Below, in pieces: positions 1 through 35,220 of a DNA stretch of 35,382 nt. The DNA comes from Desulfovibrio aminophilus DSM 12254 (GTDB taxonomy: Bacteria; Desulfobacterota; Desulfovibrionia; Desulfovibrionales; Desulfovibrionaceae): NCBI RefSeq assembly GCF_000422565.1, contig NZ_AUMA01000019.1, forward strand, positions 1 through 35,382, read 5' to 3'. The notes under the pieces are model-generated. The model ran no database searches and was not told where the DNA came from. It worked only from the letters and a program-made list of their open reading frames with translations. Made by a program: the position numbers and the translations under genes. Positions within the stretch are counted from its first letter, which is position 1. Each line of letters starts with the position of its first letter.

Positions 1-98
1 TGGTCCACCAGGCTGTTGAGCGCGTCCGGACGAAGGAACACGCCGCCCAGCACGGCCTGCTCGGCCTCCAGGGCCTGGGGGGTGAGGCGCGCGGTCAT
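1..98 (-). CDS. DnaB-like replicative helicase, N-terminal fragment (runs off window)
   Basis: Only the first 32 complete codons are present; the gene continues past base 1. The visible peptide starts MTARLTPQALEAEQAVLGG and continues through VFLRPDALNSL. This matches the start of the DnaB N-terminal domain, where the P-x-x-LEAEQ(A/S)VLGG motif is highly characteristic. DnaB is the hexameric 5'-3' replicative helicase. The ATG at 98 overlaps the stop of the preceding RMF-Lar-like gene as ATGA, so both are probably co-translated. A helicase is unexpected here, because Mu-type phages recruit host DnaB through PriA restart proteins. The ATPase domain cannot be seen, so a truncated helicase, a DnaB-domain protein or a gene of a neighbouring element remain possible. 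Confidence 0.7.
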   Translation of the reverse strand, partial: MTARLTPQALEAEQAVLGGVFLRPDALNSLVD

Positions 99-445
99 AC
101 AGCACTCCCATGATCCCAGGCAGCCCACGCGGACTCCCTAGAGGAGTAGGCTCCTGCACTCGCCCCGCACCCCCCACACGCCACCCAATACATGACAGGG
201 CGGCCAAATTGCGTGGACTCCAGACAGCCGCATCCACCACAAAAAGGACACATCCGATGCTCTCCCCCCAGCACGGCCTGCGCGGCGCGGCGGCGCTCAT
301 CCTCCATACGCTCAGACTCCCATGCCTCCTCCCACAGTCTGCGGCTGACAGGGCTCCGCATCGGATTGGCCTCCAGAGGGATGCCGGAGAGATACGCCCG
401 GCGGCCCTTAGCCCTGGCGTTGGCCCAGGTGGCGCGTTCGCTCAT
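95..445 (-). CDS. RMF-like / Lar-like zinc-finger fusion protein
   Basis: 116 aa. Residues about 8-44 (ARAKGRRAYLSGIPLEANP … W..AWES) have the G-x2-A-x-x-G … NP … W-x3-W pattern of ribosome modulation factor, which dimerises ribosomes in stationary-phase enterobacteria. Residues 65-112 carry CPFCG (Cys66, Cys69), a further pair at 90 and 93 (CGGCGA), and a terminal SRESAWAAWDHG stretch. That is the layout of Lar-family restriction-alleviation proteins (CPFCG … C-x2-CGA … A…WN). The start at 445 has a good AGGAGG four bases upstream and overlaps the ASCH gene stop (ATGA). The role is inferred: host-takeover or anti-restriction at infection. Either half could be a plain zinc-binding or nucleic-acid-binding module instead. 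Confidence 0.7.
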   Translation of the reverse strand: MSERATWANARAKGRRAYLSGIPLEANPMRSPVSRRLWEEAWESERMEDERRRAAQAVLGGEHRMCPFCGGCGCLESTQFGRPVMYWVACGGCGASAGAYSSRESAWAAWDHGSAV

Positions 446-918
446 GCGGCCTCCTGGAGTGGATAGGGATAATCCACCTGAAAGAACCCCAATCGACCAG
501 GGCAGGGCCAGAATCGCAACGGCAGTGCATTGCTCACCTTCCACCACCACTTCCCCGGCTCACACCACGGGGAAATTCTCACGTCAGGGTCTGTTGCCCT
601 CATGAAGAATGAAATGGTGGCCACGCCCACGATGCCGCCCAGGTCCAGGGCCTGGGACATGGGGTTGAGGGTGTGCCAGGGCAGCAGCTGGCCCGTGGTC
701 CGGTTGTAGGCGAGCTGGGCGGCCTGCCAGACGGGCATGGACGAGCCTCGCCGCGAATAGTCCGGCTCCCAGGGGCACTTCCGCGCTGCGGCATGGATGA
801 GCACGGGCACATTCAAATACTTGGTCGGCGGCGACCAGGAGCGGTTTTCGACGTCCTTGAGCCCCAGGGCGATCAGCGCGGCCCACGGCTGGCGGATGGA
901 GAGGGCGGGGAGGATCAT
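442..918 (-). CDS. ASCH domain protein
   Basis: 158 aa. The N-terminus MILPALSIRQPWAALIALG, followed by KDVENRSW and later PVLIHAAA, is the classic opening of ASCH-domain proteins (PUA-like beta-barrel fold). ASCH proteins bind RNA or modified nucleosides; some cleave RNA or act as amidohydrolases on acetylated cytidine. The phage substrate is unknown. The Met at 918 was chosen because it opens the conserved motif and forms an ATGA overlap with the 31-aa gene upstream. The C-terminus (EPGKWWWKV … PCPGRLGFFQVDYP) is rich in aromatics, as usual in this family. It sits between small zinc proteins in the accessory operon, so a role in RNA or defence interference is inference only. Confidence 0.85.
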   Translation of the reverse strand: MILPALSIRQPWAALIALGLKDVENRSWSPPTKYLNVPVLIHAAARKCPWEPDYSRRGSSMPVWQAAQLAYNRTTGQLLPWHTLNPMSQALDLGGIVGVATISFFMRATDPDVRISPWCEPGKWWWKVSNALPLRFWPCPGRLGFFQVDYPYPLQEAA

Positions 919-1010
919 TGCACACCCGCCGATGGGGCGTGGCACACTTCGCCCGCCAACTCCCACGAGGGGGACTCTCCGCAACCAGGACAAAGGGTCG
1001 GGGCGCTCAC
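915..1010 (-). CDS. 31-aa Cys-rich microprotein
   Basis: A very short reading frame starting at GTG 1010, reading VSAPTLCPGCGESPSWELAG then EVCHAPSAGVQ. It contains CPGC and a downstream CH, a possible zinc knuckle. Support for it being real is positional. Its GTG overlaps the upstream stop as GTGA, and its TGA overlaps the ASCH start as ATGA, the same coupling used across this phage. Without it a 90-base gap would break an otherwise gap-free operon. It resembles the small Com-type zinc proteins only in size and Cys content. No function is claimed. Confidence 0.55.
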   Translation of the reverse strand: MSAPTLCPGCGESPSWELAGEVCHAPSAGVQ

Positions 1011-1387
1011 GACGCGCCTCCCATCACCTTGCCGATCACGCACCACGGCTCATGGCCGAGGTAGGGGTTCCGGCGGCAGCGCGGGCATTCGCCGTCACTG
1101 CACCACTGCACCTCTGCCAACGCCTCGCGCAGGGCGGCAATCTCGGCCCGGAGACCGCCAAAGGTGCCGGGCCGGTCGGCATCTTCCAGGGTGATGCCGT
1201 ACGTCTCCTGGAACGCGACATAGGCGCTCTTGATTTCTGCGATGTCCTCCTGGAGCTTGTCGCGTTCGGCCACGACATCGCGCACCAGGTCCACCAGTTC
1301 ATGCAGCGCGGCGCTGGAGATGCCTGGGAACTGGGCAGGATGGAGAATGCGGATCAGTAGCGACTCAAGACGCGGATCGACGGGCAT
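1007..1387 (-). CDS. hypothetical coiled-coil protein with C-terminal Cys cluster
   Basis: 126 aa. The ATG at 1387 has an excellent GGAGGT five bases upstream, better than the ATG at 1405. The middle (about 28-95) is rich in Leu, Glu and Ala with heptad-like spacing (ELVDLVRDVVAERDKLQEDI, then AEIAALREALAEV) and is likely a coiled coil. The tail has CSDGECPRCRRN … EPWCVIG, a possible CX4CX2C…C metal site. It starts inside the 3' end of the DksA-like gene (23-base overlap). I do not recognise the family. Coiled coil plus zinc site suggests an adaptor or nucleic-acid binder, which is inference. Confidence 0.75.
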   Translation of the reverse strand: MPVDPRLESLLIRILHPAQFPGISSAALHELVDLVRDVVAERDKLQEDIAEIKSAYVAFQETYGITLEDADRPGTFGGLRAEIAALREALAEVQWCSDGECPRCRRNPYLGHEPWCVIGKVMGGAS

Positions 1388-1610
1388 TGTACACCTCCAT
1401 CTCATAATCTTGCTGGCATTCGGCGCAGCGCTCGGCGTCCGGCACGGCGGCCAGGCGCGCCACCGGAATAGGCTCGCCGCATTCGCGGCAGCAGGGAACG
1501 CCGTCGATCCACTCCGGTCCCCGGCCGGGCAGCCGGTTGGTGACCCGGCCCAGGGCTTCGGCGTTGTCCAGGGCGATGGCCAGCTGGCTCAGATCCACTT
1601 CGTCAGCCAC
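1365..1610 (-). CDS. DksA/TraR-family zinc-finger protein
   Basis: 81 aa from a GTG at 1610 with GGAGG seven bases upstream. Cys41-x2-Cys44-x17-Cys62-x2-Cys65 is exactly the CX2CX17CX2C spacing of the DksA/TraR zinc finger, and PIPVARLAAVPDAERC is the family's usual linker. TraR-type proteins bind the RNA polymerase secondary channel and can mimic DksA plus ppGpp; phage and plasmid members are about 70-90 aa, as here. A short N-terminal helix (DEVDLSQLAIALDNAEAL) precedes the finger. It lies in the post-fibre accessory operon; a role in redirecting host transcription is inferred from the family. Confidence 0.88.
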   Translation of the reverse strand: MADEVDLSQLAIALDNAEALGRVTNRLPGRGPEWIDGVPCCRECGEPIPVARLAAVPDAERCAECQQDYEMEVYNARRSAS

Positions 1611-1731
1611 GGCGACGCCTCCAACTCTTCGCCACCCTGGCCACTGCCCAGCCGAAGCCGACCACCAGAGCCAGGCCCAGGGCCAGGCCCAGAACGGCCA
1701 CAATCTCCAGCCCGCGCGCGATCTCGTGCAT
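1603..1731 (-). CDS. small single-pass membrane protein (42 aa)
   Basis: Short frame from ATG 1731 to TGA 1603. A hydrophobic segment of about 22 residues (IVAVLGLALGLALVVGFGWAVA) is followed by a basic tail (KSWRRRRG), which predicts an N-out/C-in membrane anchor by the positive-inside rule. It starts two bases after the fibre-assembly gene stop, behind a GGGGG run, and overlaps the DksA-like gene start by eight bases. Both junctions fit the tight packing of the operon. Function is unknown; superinfection exclusion or lysis control are possibilities without direct support. Confidence 0.6.
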   Translation of the reverse strand: MHEIARGLEIVAVLGLALGLALVVGFGWAVARVAKSWRRRRG

Positions 1732-24883: not shown

Positions 24884-25210
24884 TTACGATAAAACAACCT
24901 CCAACGCCGCCCGGGCCTGGGCCCGGAAAAGATCGTCGCAGCGGCGGCAATCCCCGCGCACTGAGCACCGGGAGCACGCCGTCCGCTTGATCGCCTCGAA
25001 CATCTTGGCCTCCGGCCCGGAGCGCCCCTCCAGGGCCTCGCGGATTCGCGCGGACTGGCGGGCCACGTCCCCGCCGTATGTCCCCGCCAGAATCATGTAG
25101 ACCGTGGCCCGGTTGACCACCCCGCGCATGGCTCGGCAGAACCGATGTACGGTGCGGTACTTGCCCACGATCTCGCGGCGCAGTGCCGCGATGTCCTCCG
25201 GCTCGCTCAC
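24884..25210 (-). CDS. hypothetical protein with CX2CX5CX2C cluster
   Basis: 108 aa from GTG 25210, overlapping the GemA stop (GTGA). Helical N-terminus (EDIAALRREIVGKYRTVHRFCRAM … VNRATVYMILAGTYGG) that may contain an HTH, then CSRCSVRGDCRRC near residues 80-92, a likely zinc or Fe-S site. It follows GemA and precedes the HTH gene, so it belongs to the middle regulatory cluster. Family not recognised. Confidence 0.75.
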   Translation of the reverse strand: MSEPEDIAALRREIVGKYRTVHRFCRAMRGVVNRATVYMILAGTYGGDVARQSARIREALEGRSGPEAKMFEAIKRTACSRCSVRGDCRRCDDLFRAQARAALEVVLS

Positions 25211-25701
25211 ACGGCGGCCCCGGCGGAGCGGCGCTTGGCCTCCACCCGCTTCTCCAGGTCCATGACCAGGCGGCGGATGTCCTGTTCCCGGGCCAGCCAG
25301 CGCAGGGCCTCGACCCCGAACTCCCGGCGCACCCGCGTGTCCAGGGACGTCATGTCGTAGCCCAGCTCGCGCCACATGGCCGCGATGTACCGCTTCACCT
25401 GGGCGCGCGGGCCATCTGGGATTTCATACCAGTCCGAACGCCTGGAGGCCGCCTTGGCCTGGTAGCCCGGCTTGTTCCGTGGCTCGGTACGCGAAGTGAA
25501 CTGCGCGCCCTGGGCCGCCAGGTGGTCCACCAACTTGATCAGCTCCACGCCCGTGAGGTCGGCCGAGCTGGACTTGCCGTACTTGGCCATCAGCAGATCG
25601 CGCCAGGTCTCGTCGTCCAGGCCGATCTGCTTGCGTCCCAGGTGGACCTTGGCATAGAGCCCGCGTCTCTGACCGGGCGTCATGCGGGGAGCGGTCTTCA
25701 T
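25207..25701 (-). CDS. gemA: GemA-like regulatory protein (Mu gp16, DUF1018)
   Basis: 164 aa from ATG 25701, eight bases after AGGAG (ATG 25707 is only two bases from it). TPGQRRGLYAKVHLGRKQIGLDDETWRDLLMAKYGKSSSADLTG is the DUF1018 signature, and REFGVEALRWLAREQDIRRLVMDLEKR fits its C-terminus. In Mu, GemA modulates host gene expression and DNA topology late in the early phase. It lies just upstream of the middle/late switch genes, as in Mu. Confidence 0.9.
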   Translation of the reverse strand: MKTAPRMTPGQRRGLYAKVHLGRKQIGLDDETWRDLLMAKYGKSSSADLTGVELIKLVDHLAAQGAQFTSRTEPRNKPGYQAKAASRRSDWYEIPDGPRAQVKRYIAAMWRELGYDMTSLDTRVRREFGVEALRWLAREQDIRRLVMDLEKRVEAKRRSAGAAV

Positions 25702-25720
25702 TCTCATCTCTCCTGCAAAA

Positions 25721-26047
25721 TTAATCGGGTTCGCCATCAACCGAGAGGATCGCGTGGACACGGGAGCGGCGCAGCTCGTAATTGGCGTCCTGCCACCGTC
25801 GGCGCATACCGGCCTCCCGTCGCCCCCAGGCGACTTCGCCCCCAGGGAACCTTTCCGCGATGTCGCGGCAAGCCGAGACGATCTTGTTCCACCGGATCAT
25901 GTGCCACCACAGAGCCTCGTAGACCTCGGCCAGCCACGACAAAGCCTCAATGCGGTCGTGAAGCGGGCAGACCTGGAGATACGGGCACGACGGGCACATG
26001 GCCTGCTGGCATCCGAGATAGTCGATCATCAGCTTGGGGTTGCTCAT
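25721..26047 (-). CDS. hypothetical protein with CX4CX2CX5C motif
   Basis: 108 aa, ATG 26047 overlapping the upstream stop (ATGA). CQQAMCPSCPYLQVC at residues about 13-27 has CX4CX2CX5C spacing, suggestive of an iron-sulfur or zinc site. The rest is helical and Trp-rich (WLAEVYEALWWHMIRWNKIV … GRREAGMRRRW). No family recognised. It is part of the early operon of small proteins between DUF4258 and GemA. Confidence 0.75.
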   Translation of the reverse strand: MSNPKLMIDYLGCQQAMCPSCPYLQVCPLHDRIEALSWLAEVYEALWWHMIRWNKIVSACRDIAERFPGGEVAWGRREAGMRRRWQDANYELRRSRVHAILSVDGEPD

Positions 26048-27420: not shown

Positions 27421-27449
27421 CTACGCTCTCCCTCGGCTGCTCATCAGGC

Positions 27450-27490
27450 CCGGGCCGCCACGCCCGGACGACCGCCCCATGCGGGGCGGT
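27450..27490 (-). terminator. tandem hairpins between early gene blocks
   Basis: Two perfect stems lie in the 74-bp gap: ACCGCCCC/GGGGCGGT (8 bp, loop ATGC, 27471-27490) and CCGGGC/GCCCGG (6 bp, 27450-27467). Neither has a U-tract on the minus strand; the larger has TTTCGCTATTT on the plus side. They may attenuate the early transcript or block antisense transcription. Confidence 0.5.
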
Positions 27491-27494
27491 TTCG

Positions 27495-27680
27495 CTATTT
27501 GGCGAACGTGATCGCCGTGTCCTCGCCGAACGTGTCATTGATGCCCATGACCGTGACGACGGCCATCTGTTGCGCGAGCGTGCCCTCGTCCTCGCGCTGG
27601 ACCGGCGGATCAAAAACGACGCGCACATCGACGGCCCCGCCATCCTCGTTGTCCTGGAAGGTGACAGTCACCTTGGCCAT
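27495..27680 (-). CDS. small hypothetical early protein (61 aa)
   Basis: MAKVTVTFQDNEDGGAVDV … RVVFDPPVQREDEGTLAQQM … AITFAK. A small acidic beta-type protein starting at the last base of the HU-like stop. This type recurs in early regions of Mu-like phages, but I cannot give a function. Confidence 0.75.
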   Translation of the reverse strand: MAKVTVTFQDNEDGGAVDVRVVFDPPVQREDEGTLAQQMAVVTVMGINDTFGEDTAITFAK

Positions 27681-30540: not shown

Positions 30541-32703
30541 TCAGTTGGCCTGGGCCACGCGCGCGCCATAGATGCGCTCCATGGTCCGCATGGCTCGGTA
30601 GCCCGAGGTGTTGGGGTAGGTCTGATGCCAACGCTTTTCCTGTTCGGTCACGGCCTCGCCGGAGGCGATCCGGGCATCCAGTCGCTTCCAGCGCGCGTCG
30701 ATCTCCTGCGGGGTCTCTTGCTTGACGGGCATGGGCGTCACCTGGCCGGAGCGCACCCGCTCCAGGGCGGCGGCCTCGGCCGCGTCCAGGGGCCGAGCCT
30801 GGGGAGTGGAGGGCAGGGCCGCGCGCCTGGCCTCCACGGCCTTGACCGCTTCCAGGGTCTCCAGGCGGCGCTGCGCCTCGGGCAGGACCACCCGCTTGAG
30901 CATCTCCCCGGCCGTCGAGGCCACCAGCTTCTTCTGCTCGGCCTTGTAGGCCAGCTTCTGTTGCAGGGAGGCCTGCTGTTCCGGGGTGCCCAGGATGGCG
31001 GCCATCGGGTGCTCGGCCCCGTAGGTCCGCGCCTCGCACATGAATTTCCCGTCCGTGTCGTAGACCAGGATGGTGTCGGGCTCCTGGGGGTCGTAGCGCA
31101 CCACGCATTTGTGGCGGCGGTCGGAGAGCATGGGGTGGTAGTAGTGCCGCCCGCGCAGGCTCACGCCGTGCTTGGTGATCCCCTTGACTTCCTTGGAGAG
31201 CATGAGCAGGTCCAGCCGGGCCAAATCCACGCCGGGGCCCACTCCCAGGCTGAACACGTCGATGGGCGCGCGGCCCCTGAGATGAGCCGCCCGGCTGGGA
31301 CGCCGCACGTACTCGTCGAACCACAGCGCCAGGGCCTTGTAGGTCTCCTCCAGGGTCAGGGGACGGCCGCCCATCGCCGCATAGGCCCGCCGATGCACGT
31401 CCTCGCCGCGTTTCATCCGCGCTGGCTTGGCGTCGATGCAGTTGCCGGTGTACGAGGGCGACCAGACCTCAAGCTCATGCAGGGTGCCGAAAAACCGCTC
31501 AACCGGCTTGCTCTGGCCGTGGTACGGCTGGGCGTGGACCACGTGCATGTCCAGGTCGTCATAGAGCCCGTTCATGCCCACCGTGGTCCCGGTGTCCTCC
31601 AGCAGACTGGCGATGCCGCACTGCCGGAAATCCGCGACCCCCGAGAAGAACCGGGCCCGGAACGCCTTGCCGTTGTCCAGGTAGGCCACTTTCGGGGTCT
31701 TCCCCAGGGCGATGCAGGCCCGGCGGAACGCCGCCGCGATGCACTGCACGTTCTCCGTAGCCATGACTTCCCAGCCCACCGGGTAGTTGCTGGCCCCGTC
31801 GAACCACATGAGCAGCGTCATGCGGCAGGGCTTGCCCGTGGCGGGATTGATGGACTCGAAATTGAGCGTGTGGCCGTCCGCGATGAGCACGTCGCCCACG
31901 TTGATGAGGCTCCAGTCCCGGCGGATGGACCAGGCGCATTTGTCGTTCCAGGCCTTGGTTCCCTCGCGGACCATGACCCAGGTTTGGTGGCACTCGCCGA
32001 TGTAGCGGTCCAGGAAGCGGCGCATGGTGGCCTCGGACGGAATGGGCGAGAGGCCCTGGGCCCGCATGATCTTCCCGGCCTCGCGCACCGCGACGGAGAT
32101 GGCAGGGCTGTTGGGGTTGAGCGCCGTGCGCAGCAGCACCCGGCGGTGCTCGTCCGTCAACACGGACTGCCCGCGATGCGCCAGGCCCCGCCGATCCGCC
32201 AGCACGAGAACTGATCCCTGGCGCTCCTGGGCCACTTTCCAGCGCTCCAGGGACTGCCACGACACCTTGCCCAGGGCGTCCAAAAGGTTGGGCCAGCCAC
32301 CAGCGAGGTACGCCTCGACAAAGTCCCGCTTCGCCGCCACGGTCGCGCCGTGCCGTCGCTGCCATTCCAAGTACAGTCGGATCAAATCCGCCTTGGCCAG
32401 CGCCTTGGCCCGGCGCGCGGCGTCCAGGGCCTGGGCCGGAACCGGCGCGCCGGGGGCCGCCGGGAGCTGCGCGACGGCCAGGGCCGGGGAGGTCTCGGCC
32501 AGGGCCTTCTGCTCGGCCACCCGGATGGCCAGCCGCGTGGCCTCGGGCATGGACGCCACCAGCCACTCCCGGCCGCCGCCTCGGCCCGCGCGGGGGCGGG
32601 ACTTCCAGGACTCACGGGTGGCCATTCTGTGGACGGCCCTCACCGGGCGGTCGAGCAGCCCTGACAACTCCGTGGAGCTATATGATTCCTTGATGGTGGA
32701 CAT
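30541..32703 (-). CDS. DDE transposase (MuA-like)
   Basis: 720 aa (Mu A is 663). The first 50 residues (YSSTELSGLLDRPVRAVHRMATR … RGGGREWLVASMP) are the Mu-type N-terminal winged helix. The catalytic triad is visible: Asp276 in IADGHTL, Asp343 in YLDNGKAF, Glu402 in KPVERFFGTLHE. The D-D spacing of 67 equals that of Mu A (269/336). A beta-barrel and helical C-terminus follow. ATG 32703 was chosen because the conserved domain begins there. It cuts and joins phage ends and drives replicative transposition. Confidence 0.95.
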   Translation of the reverse strand: MSTIKESYSSTELSGLLDRPVRAVHRMATRESWKSRPRAGRGGGREWLVASMPEATRLAIRVAEQKALAETSPALAVAQLPAAPGAPVPAQALDAARRAKALAKADLIRLYLEWQRRHGATVAAKRDFVEAYLAGGWPNLLDALGKVSWQSLERWKVAQERQGSVLVLADRRGLAHRGQSVLTDEHRRVLLRTALNPNSPAISVAVREAGKIMRAQGLSPIPSEATMRRFLDRYIGECHQTWVMVREGTKAWNDKCAWSIRRDWSLINVGDVLIADGHTLNFESINPATGKPCRMTLLMWFDGASNYPVGWEVMATENVQCIAAAFRRACIALGKTPKVAYLDNGKAFRARFFSGVADFRQCGIASLLEDTGTTVGMNGLYDDLDMHVVHAQPYHGQSKPVERFFGTLHELEVWSPSYTGNCIDAKPARMKRGEDVHRRAYAAMGGRPLTLEETYKALALWFDEYVRRPSRAAHLRGRAPIDVFSLGVGPGVDLARLDLLMLSKEVKGITKHGVSLRGRHYYHPMLSDRRHKCVVRYDPQEPDTILVYDTDGKFMCEARTYGAEHPMAAILGTPEQQASLQQKLAYKAEQKKLVASTAGEMLKRVVLPEAQRRLETLEAVKAVEARRAALPSTPQARPLDAAEAAALERVRSGQVTPMPVKQETPQEIDARWKRLDARIASGEAVTEQEKRWHQTYPNTSGYRAMRTMERIYGARVAQAN

Positions 32704-35046: not shown

Positions 35047-35220
35047 ATTCTCAAATTGGATGCAAATTTGGTCCGAAGTAGGCCCGACATTCTCATCTTG
35101 ATTTCGTGCCCTAAATTTTCTTCAACCTCCCCTCGCAGCCCGTGTCAGTCCTACATTCGTCCTACTTTTGTCCGACCCTACCTGGGTGTCTAGCCCATTC
35201 TCAAGTTAGCTGTCCCCCCA
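35047..35220. other. putative phage left end with L1, L2, L3-like transposase sites
   Basis: Read on the minus strand the end begins TGGGGGGACAG, and a motif C(T/C)AA(C/T)TTGAGAAT occurs at 35209-35197, in weaker form at 35100-35089, and at 35059-35047. From the proposed end these lie at about 12-24, 121-132 and 162-174. Mu L1, L2 and L3 have a similar layout with a wide L1-L2 gap. The terminal TG dinucleotide fits Mu-family ends. The exact end base is inferred. Confidence 0.65.
35149..35181. repeat. three 11-bp tandem units in the L1-L2 gap
   Basis: TCCTACATTCG, TCCTACTTTTG and TCCGACCCTAC follow each other without gaps. The 11-bp period is near the DNA helical repeat, and the array lies between the L1-like and L2-like sites, the place where HU bends Mu DNA. 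Confidence 0.6.

Follow-up and report, generated by a model that had tools for sequence, protein, structure and literature searches.

Contig NZ_AUMA01000019.1 of Desulfovibrio aminophilus DSM 12254 (C12 in our numbering, one of 25 contigs in a 3.42-Mb genome, and hereafter the window, meaning the whole stretch of 35,382 bases analyzed) carries a Mu-like prophage with a compact block of genes behind its tail-fiber assembly gene. On balance, we favor the interpretation that this block occupies an accessory slot at the right end of the prophage, which is about 36.7 kb long, and that the slot here holds an operon for host takeover whose genes are translationally coupled. The combination of genes appears to be new, as does the repeated capture of a host dnaB by Mu-like phages; each kind of part is already known.

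Organization of the accessory block

The block follows the assembly gene on the same (minus) strand after a gap of 2 nucleotides (nt), and its successive genes overlap by 8, 23, 40, 4, 4, and 4 nt. A sequence-only reading of this DNA had listed tightly overlapped accessory genes here, and that list stands: all of the named genes are on the minus strand, with overlaps of 4 to 40 nt. In gene order, the features are as follows (aa, amino acids; ORF, open reading frame).

1734-2111, minus: tail-fiber assembly gene preceding the block (PF16778, 8.2e-25)
1603-1731, minus: small membrane protein, 42 aa, an ORF with a hydrophobic stretch seen by eye and an 8-nt overlap with the next gene
1365-1610, minus: TraR-type DksA-like protein, 81 aa (PF01258, 6.8e-12; phrog_54, 7.7e-14)
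1007-1387, minus: coiled-coil-like protein, 126 aa, Cys-rich at the C terminus (coiled coil judged by eye)
915-1046, minus: possible CxxC protein, 43 aa, doubtful (ORF only)
442-918, minus: ASCH-like protein, 158 aa, with 4-nt overlaps on either side (phrog_3193, 1e-26)
95-445, minus: RMF-Lar fusion, 116 aa (Lar, PF14354, 3.4e-7; RMF, PF04957, 3.2e-4)
1-98 and on beyond the window, minus: start of the phage dnaB, complete on contig C10 (L006 18432-19763, 443 aa)

Recurrence in other phages supports the DksA-like, coiled-coil, ASCH-like, and RMF-Lar genes; the membrane gene and the 43-aa ORF have no such support. Family scans gave no convincing match for the 42-aa membrane protein, and the 43-aa ORF had no PHROGs match and a Pfam match at chance level. 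Neither Com, Mom, nor an invertase was found in the block by Pfam scan and probes, gin not having been searched for in the remainder of the window.

The prophage and its two ends

The prophage genes lie on the minus strand and run from the transposase through terminase, head, and protease genes to the tail tip, the tail-fiber assembly gene, and the block. That this is a transposable, Mu-like prophage, as first proposed from the sequence, is borne out by a Mu-type transposase and by inverted TGAGAAT-type sites at both ends.

30541-32697, minus: Mu-type transposase (phrog_310, 1.3e-115), the sole full match in the genome
2992-6525, minus: lambda-J-like tail tip (profile match)
35047-35203, minus: three TGAGAAT-type sites at the left phage end, with inverted counterparts on C10 past dnaB

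Base 1 of the window is a mere contig break, and the prophage runs on beyond it. Bases 1 to 335 are exactly overlapped by the end of C10 and bases 1 to 324 by the end of contig C25, and both contigs continue into a complete dnaB and then into differing flanks, so that dnaB comes next whichever of the two pairs with the window. Past dnaB, C10 carries two TGAGAAT sites that are inverted relative to the three left-end sites. The window most likely joins C10, because one of these right-end sites is an exact 13-bp match to the first of the left-end sites. A Mu-type right end thus lies on C10 about 1.46 kb past base 1, and the prophage comes to about 36.7 kb by arithmetic (35,233 bases in the window plus 1,457 on C10). 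The sequence AGAGGAG is present at both prophage junctions and is a candidate target duplication only, the exact ends not being fixed; the right flank is a tRNA-Met gene.

The sequence-only reading had asked for an extension past base 1 to the phage end; there the complete dnaB is followed by this right end, and a phage end between positions 1731 and 1 is thereby ruled out. Nor do these genes belong to the early region of a different prophage, since the block is contiguous with the tail genes of this phage.

The block is a mosaic of separable pieces

Two other phages share parts of the block. The first is an independent, metagenomic virus contig of 37.6 kb (IMG/VR 3300022181_000052; L236, L298, and L299), which encodes a transposase (phrog_310, 2.4e-97), a MuB-type protein (phrog_296, 9.3e-68), and a baseplate-J gene; the window transposase has no match in this record, which has its own phrog_310 transposase. 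One end of the contig reads, in order, a 273-aa gene, DksA (84% aa identity), the coiled coil (82%), a 122-aa gene, and DnaB (97%). The 122-aa protein (L236 9630-9998) has no Pfam family and replaces ASCH-RMF-Lar between the coiled coil and DnaB. The last bases of the contig match the end on C25, after which both diverge, and therefore the phage end is marked there. Early genes of this contig are on the strand opposite to the late genes, and its far end carries C25-like repeats; the record may be rearranged, and the adjacency used here lies within one 11.5-kb stretch.

The second is another prophage of the same genome, most likely made up of C24 with C25, in which the tail genes are followed by a different, 147-aa gene and then by ASCH, RMF-Lar, and DnaB. 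The part common to the window and this prophage starts at the ASCH start codon. The second half of the 147-aa protein weakly matches DNA methyltransferase families (31.7 bits), with no Pfam match. Behind its tail genes (L010 and L011; C24:1-40000), the second prophage carries a CI-like repressor, a DNA ligase-like protein, a helicase, and a serine integrase, which suggests that a Mu-like tail end has been joined to a different prophage.

DksA-coiled coil is thus common to one phage, ASCH-RMF-Lar to another, and DnaB to both, and in each of the three phages carrying this DnaB its gene comes last. Judged by these gene orders, DksA-coiled coil and ASCH-RMF-Lar can be separated from each other, which makes the block a mosaic and not a single fixed unit. 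The earlier proposal of a single takeover or counter-defense unit holds to the extent that the block is present as described; it does not hold as a unit, given the mosaic across two other phages and a DnaB that looks more like a captured host replicative helicase than a counter-defense gene.

A host-type replicative helicase

The 42 dnaB codons inside the window scored 20.7 bits for the DnaB N terminus, below the cutoff of 23. The complete protein on C10 scored 574.5 bits for the full DnaB equivalog (TIGR00665, cutoff 385.25), with Walker motifs recognized by eye. It is 97% identical to the DnaB at the right end of the virus contig (L236), and the numbers of nonsynonymous (dN) and synonymous (dS) substitutions per site between phage DnaB copies were 0.028/0.223 and 0.030/0.224; such low dN relative to dS indicates purifying selection and speaks for a working protein.

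Among genomes of the host family (Desulfovibrionaceae), the cellular proteins closest to the phage protein are the DnaBs from the host genus, at 87, 86, and 84%, with other genera at 72% or less. Among named hits, Desulfovibrio sp. UBA4079 is nearest (84%), followed by Desulfothermus (83% for the best segment), the rest being at 72% or less. The host's own dnaB lies on contig C1 beside genes read by eye as rplI, rpsR, and rpsF. With the host gene there, and with the two phage copies ending in different flanks, we ruled out that the phage dnaB is ordinary flanking host DNA.

More than one DnaB hit at 1e-100 was present in five of the 269 family genomes with a hit: this one and those designated G010, G011, G031, and G174. 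Two of these additional copies, those of G174 and G031, belong to Mu-like prophages; each occupies the early region, preceded by MuA and MuB and followed by a relative of the gene at window positions 25207-25761, which we take to be GemA-like. The second DnaB of G011 lies about 12 kb from the last recognized gene of a Mu-like head block, with no MuA or MuB match in 31 kb, and that of G010 had no other phage marker in 14 kb. When 24 hand-chosen DnaB sequences were placed in a tree, each phage dnaB grouped with its own host genus, with support of 1.00 for G174 and for G031; the node joining the window group to its genus has support of 0.998, and branching inside that node reaches 0.68 at most. 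Because the phage copies of the window, G174, and G031 each group with their own host genus, at least three captures of a host dnaB by Mu-like phages are suggested.

Phage P1 provides a precedent with its ban gene, a dnaB of host type. Records of P1 ban match the phage DnaB at 51%, among the best 60 of the 268 phage records with a DnaB match. The two cases are alike in having a full-length host-type DnaB on a temperate phage; they differ in that the phage here is transposable, the position of the gene is different, and its type is that of the present host genus. We found no report of a host-type dnaB in Mu-like phages in the open-license literature, which was covered mostly by titles and the openings of abstracts.

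The DksA-like protein and its coiled-coil neighbor

The DksA-like protein has the C4 zinc finger of the dksA/traR type (PF01258, zf-dskA_traR, 45.6 bits against a cutoff of 24.9). Of its N-terminal DxxDxA motif, D3 and D6 are present and A8 is replaced by Ser. D3 and D6 are reported as required in TraR and lambda Orf73, and Orf73 as increasing lambda yield (PMC9239242). The window protein resembles this family of F TraR and lambda Orf73 in its C4 zinc finger, its small size, and its D3 and D6; it differs in the Ser at position 8, its length of 81 aa, its score below the TIGR02419 cutoff, and the position of its gene behind the tail genes. A TraR-type gene is also found before the terminase genes of the G031 phage with the host-type dnaB (L302 4368-4619), where TIGR02419 scores 60.9 bits, above the cutoff of 59.7; DksA and DnaB may travel as a pair.

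For the coiled-coil protein, family scans gave no family above chance, and a scan of viral contigs with it returned the already known virus contig (L236) as its sole match. Relative to that contig, dN and dS were 0.096 and 0.364 for DksA and 0.119 and 0.281 for the coiled coil, values that indicate purifying selection on both genes.

The ASCH-like protein and the RMF-Lar fusion

The ASCH-like protein shares with ASCH proteins such as ASC-1 and YqfB the motif QPWA...G.K..ENR.W and a match to phrog_3193, and ASC-1 ASCH chains in the PDB match it at 6e-4. Fifty phage records match it, all at less than 60% identity. The catalytic residues of YqfB are given as Lys21, Thr24, and Glu74 (PMC9599836). 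Lys21 is kept in the window protein, and position 24 is Glu in all six aligned phage-type sequences, in contrast to YqfB. A YqfB-like amidohydrolase was ruled out on the missing Thr24, and nucleic-acid binding by the ASCH-like protein is therefore likelier than deacetylation. Its structure model was too poor for use (mean predicted local distance difference test [pLDDT] score, 51.7).

The RMF-Lar protein has a Lar zinc ribbon above the Pfam cutoff (PF14354, 30.8 bits against 28.6; TIGR03655, 24.7 bits, below 39.6) and N-terminal helices that are most RMF-like. It differs from Lar restriction-alleviation proteins and from RMF in fusing both. It had zero matches in phage records, viral contigs, and named genome contigs, and among 288 family genomes only two weak partial matches outside this genome. 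The RMF-like half may point, weakly, to the ribosome.

The slot behind the tail-fiber assembly gene

The sequence-only reading had placed the block in the gin/mom position of Mu and had called for a survey of co-occurrence. The assembly gene has a match in 83 of the 288 family genomes (this one included), at 114 places outside this genome. Fifty-nine of these were taken, roughly in order of score; G221:C28 was skipped for having no sequence behind it, and G190:C88, G110:C214, G051:C43, and G148:C19 were left out despite scoring better than the last place taken. The 59 slots were probed with the block proteins, Mom and Dam proteins from two relatives, and a zinc-finger pattern rather than by whole-slot Pfam scans. 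Clustering of slots, which gave mostly wrong-frame or host sequence, was used only for picking candidates. Mom or a DNA methyltransferase was present in 6 of the 59 slots, and any of Mom, methyltransferase, Com, and DksA in 9. The slots with such content, and one found by a separate route, are as follows.

L153 (same place as L094): TM-DksA-Com-Mom (Pfam confirmed)
L147, L162, and L167: Com and an N6/N4 methyltransferase (Pfam confirmed)
L157: methyltransferase (Pfam confirmed)
L142: D12 methyltransferase, 1.6 kb on, behind other small genes (similarity search only)
L146: Com (Pfam confirmed)
L152: Com/DksA-like remnant (similarity search only)
L139: DksA (Pfam confirmed)
L097 (separate route): DksA, then a D12 methyltransferase

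The slot is a variable right-end accessory position and not a fixed mom site. What survives of the comparison with the com-mom right end of Mu is the position, directly behind the tail-fiber genes and on the same strand, together with the Com plus Mom, Com plus methyltransferase, and DksA plus D12 methyltransferase pairs of some host-family relatives; the block itself differs in lacking Com, Mom, and an invertase and in holding DksA, a coiled coil, ASCH, RMF-Lar, and DnaB instead. Mom, methyltransferases, and restriction-alleviation genes in Desulfovibrio prophages have already been published (PMC12724379). The slot offers a map position for seeking further anti-restriction or takeover genes in transposable phages, and the candidates are, in the block, ASCH, RMF-Lar, and the coiled coil and, in the virus contig, the 122-aa protein.

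Proposed function and alternative explanations

If the block is a takeover operon, its transcription would accompany that of the tail genes or follow it immediately. The product of the TraR-like gene would then bind the secondary channel of RNA polymerase and turn down ribosomal promoters, the phage DnaB would add to the replicative helicase available to the numerous forks that replicative transposition creates, and RMF-Lar and ASCH would blunt restriction in place of Com-Mom and perhaps tune ribosomes. Of the proteins in the block, the Lar-type and ASCH ones would most plausibly take the place of Com-Mom against restriction. All of these functions of the block (control of RNA polymerase, helicase supply, counter-restriction, and coordinated expression) are ones that we infer.

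A broader proposal is tentative, and we would not lean on it: transposable phages of this family may repeatedly capture the helicase of their own host (in three genera, at the right end here and in the early region in two) because forks outnumber host DnaB, and here the helicase may be coupled into one operon with an RNA polymerase regulator and RMF-Lar, which would retune transcription, translation, restriction, and replication together. Mu is the standard example of a phage that uses the replisome of its host. If true, repeated capture of a host dnaB by Mu-like phages would mean that the supply or identity of the helicase limits replicative transposition. PriA-dependent loading of DnaB is needed for Mu replication (PMC3325207).

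Several results weigh against a takeover operon with a replicative helicase. The end of a late operon is an odd placement for a replication gene, and few genomes have an extra host-type dnaB (5 of 269). Of the family assignments, DksA falls 2.8 bits short of the NCBIfam TraR subfamily cutoff (TIGR02419, 56.9 bits against 59.7), the ASCH profile is below its cutoff (PF04266, 16.6 bits against 21.2), and so is the RMF domain (PF04957, 21.1 bits against 27.9), for which the top PDB fold match, 2jrm (RMF), was nonsignificant (E value, 1.6; probability score, 0.60; mean pLDDT of the model, 69.4). In addition, 50 of the 59 slots had no match to the probes used, and mom-type content is a minority in the sample.

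Alternatively, the genes may be unrelated cargo (morons) gathered at a permissive phage end, with overlaps that reflect compact packing only. The mosaic structure, in which DksA-coiled coil and ASCH-RMF-Lar are common to different phages, fits this explanation, as does the reported rule that Mu-like phages of P. aeruginosa carry accessory genes at a few fixed sites (PMC4378225). Against it stand the constant place of DnaB as the last gene in the three phages sharing it and the retention of DksA and the coiled coil together, and we regard loose cargo as a doubtful account of the block.

The phage DnaB could also be a decoy, or a resistant version that evades a factor, from the host or from a rival phage, by which host DnaB is bound or blocked. 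Between the two prophage copies in this genome, differences in dnaB cluster at about nt 400 to 600, as expected from one swapped stretch, and those of ASCH at about nt 53 to 147; clustering in both genes points to recombination with a third allele. The dnaB genes of G174 and G031, in contrast, adjoin transposition genes, which fits replication. We consider a decoy improbable.

An assembly artifact that joined window tail genes and ASCH-RMF-Lar-dnaB from different replicons at a repeat is very improbable: bases 1 to 918 of the window are 97% identical to the start of C24, with about the first 775 fully identical and a contig break there, but C12 and C24 have different versions of the 5' part of ASCH, each continuous with its own upstream genes, DksA-coiled coil-X-DnaB is present in the independent metagenome contig, and either contig pairing (C10 or C25) places dnaB next.

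Other features of the prophage

A repeat at the end of the contig (35349-35375), in the left flank of the prophage, of which the genome holds a single copy at up to two mismatches, is presumably of the CRISPR (clustered regularly interspaced short palindromic repeat) type, and the prophage seems to adjoin a CRISPR array whose remainder is unassembled. Between dnaB and the phage end, a promoter-like site, TTGGCT-17-TATAGT, is present on the minus strand of C10 (L006 18383-18411; 1 found against 0.3 expected) and could give rise to a small RNA at the phage end. A tRNA-Thr call within the fiber gene (2786-2866, minus) had no Rfam tRNA match at the gathering score and is probably false. Finally, a type II hammerhead ribozyme (gathering score, 37) was absent from the G174 stretches and present in the early region of three Mu-like phages, as follows.

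27431-27497 of the window, minus: type II hammerhead ribozyme, 77.3 bits
L299 4779-4845 (virus contig): type II hammerhead ribozyme, 55.6 bits
L302 10581-10647 (G031 prophage): type II hammerhead ribozyme, 64.5 bits

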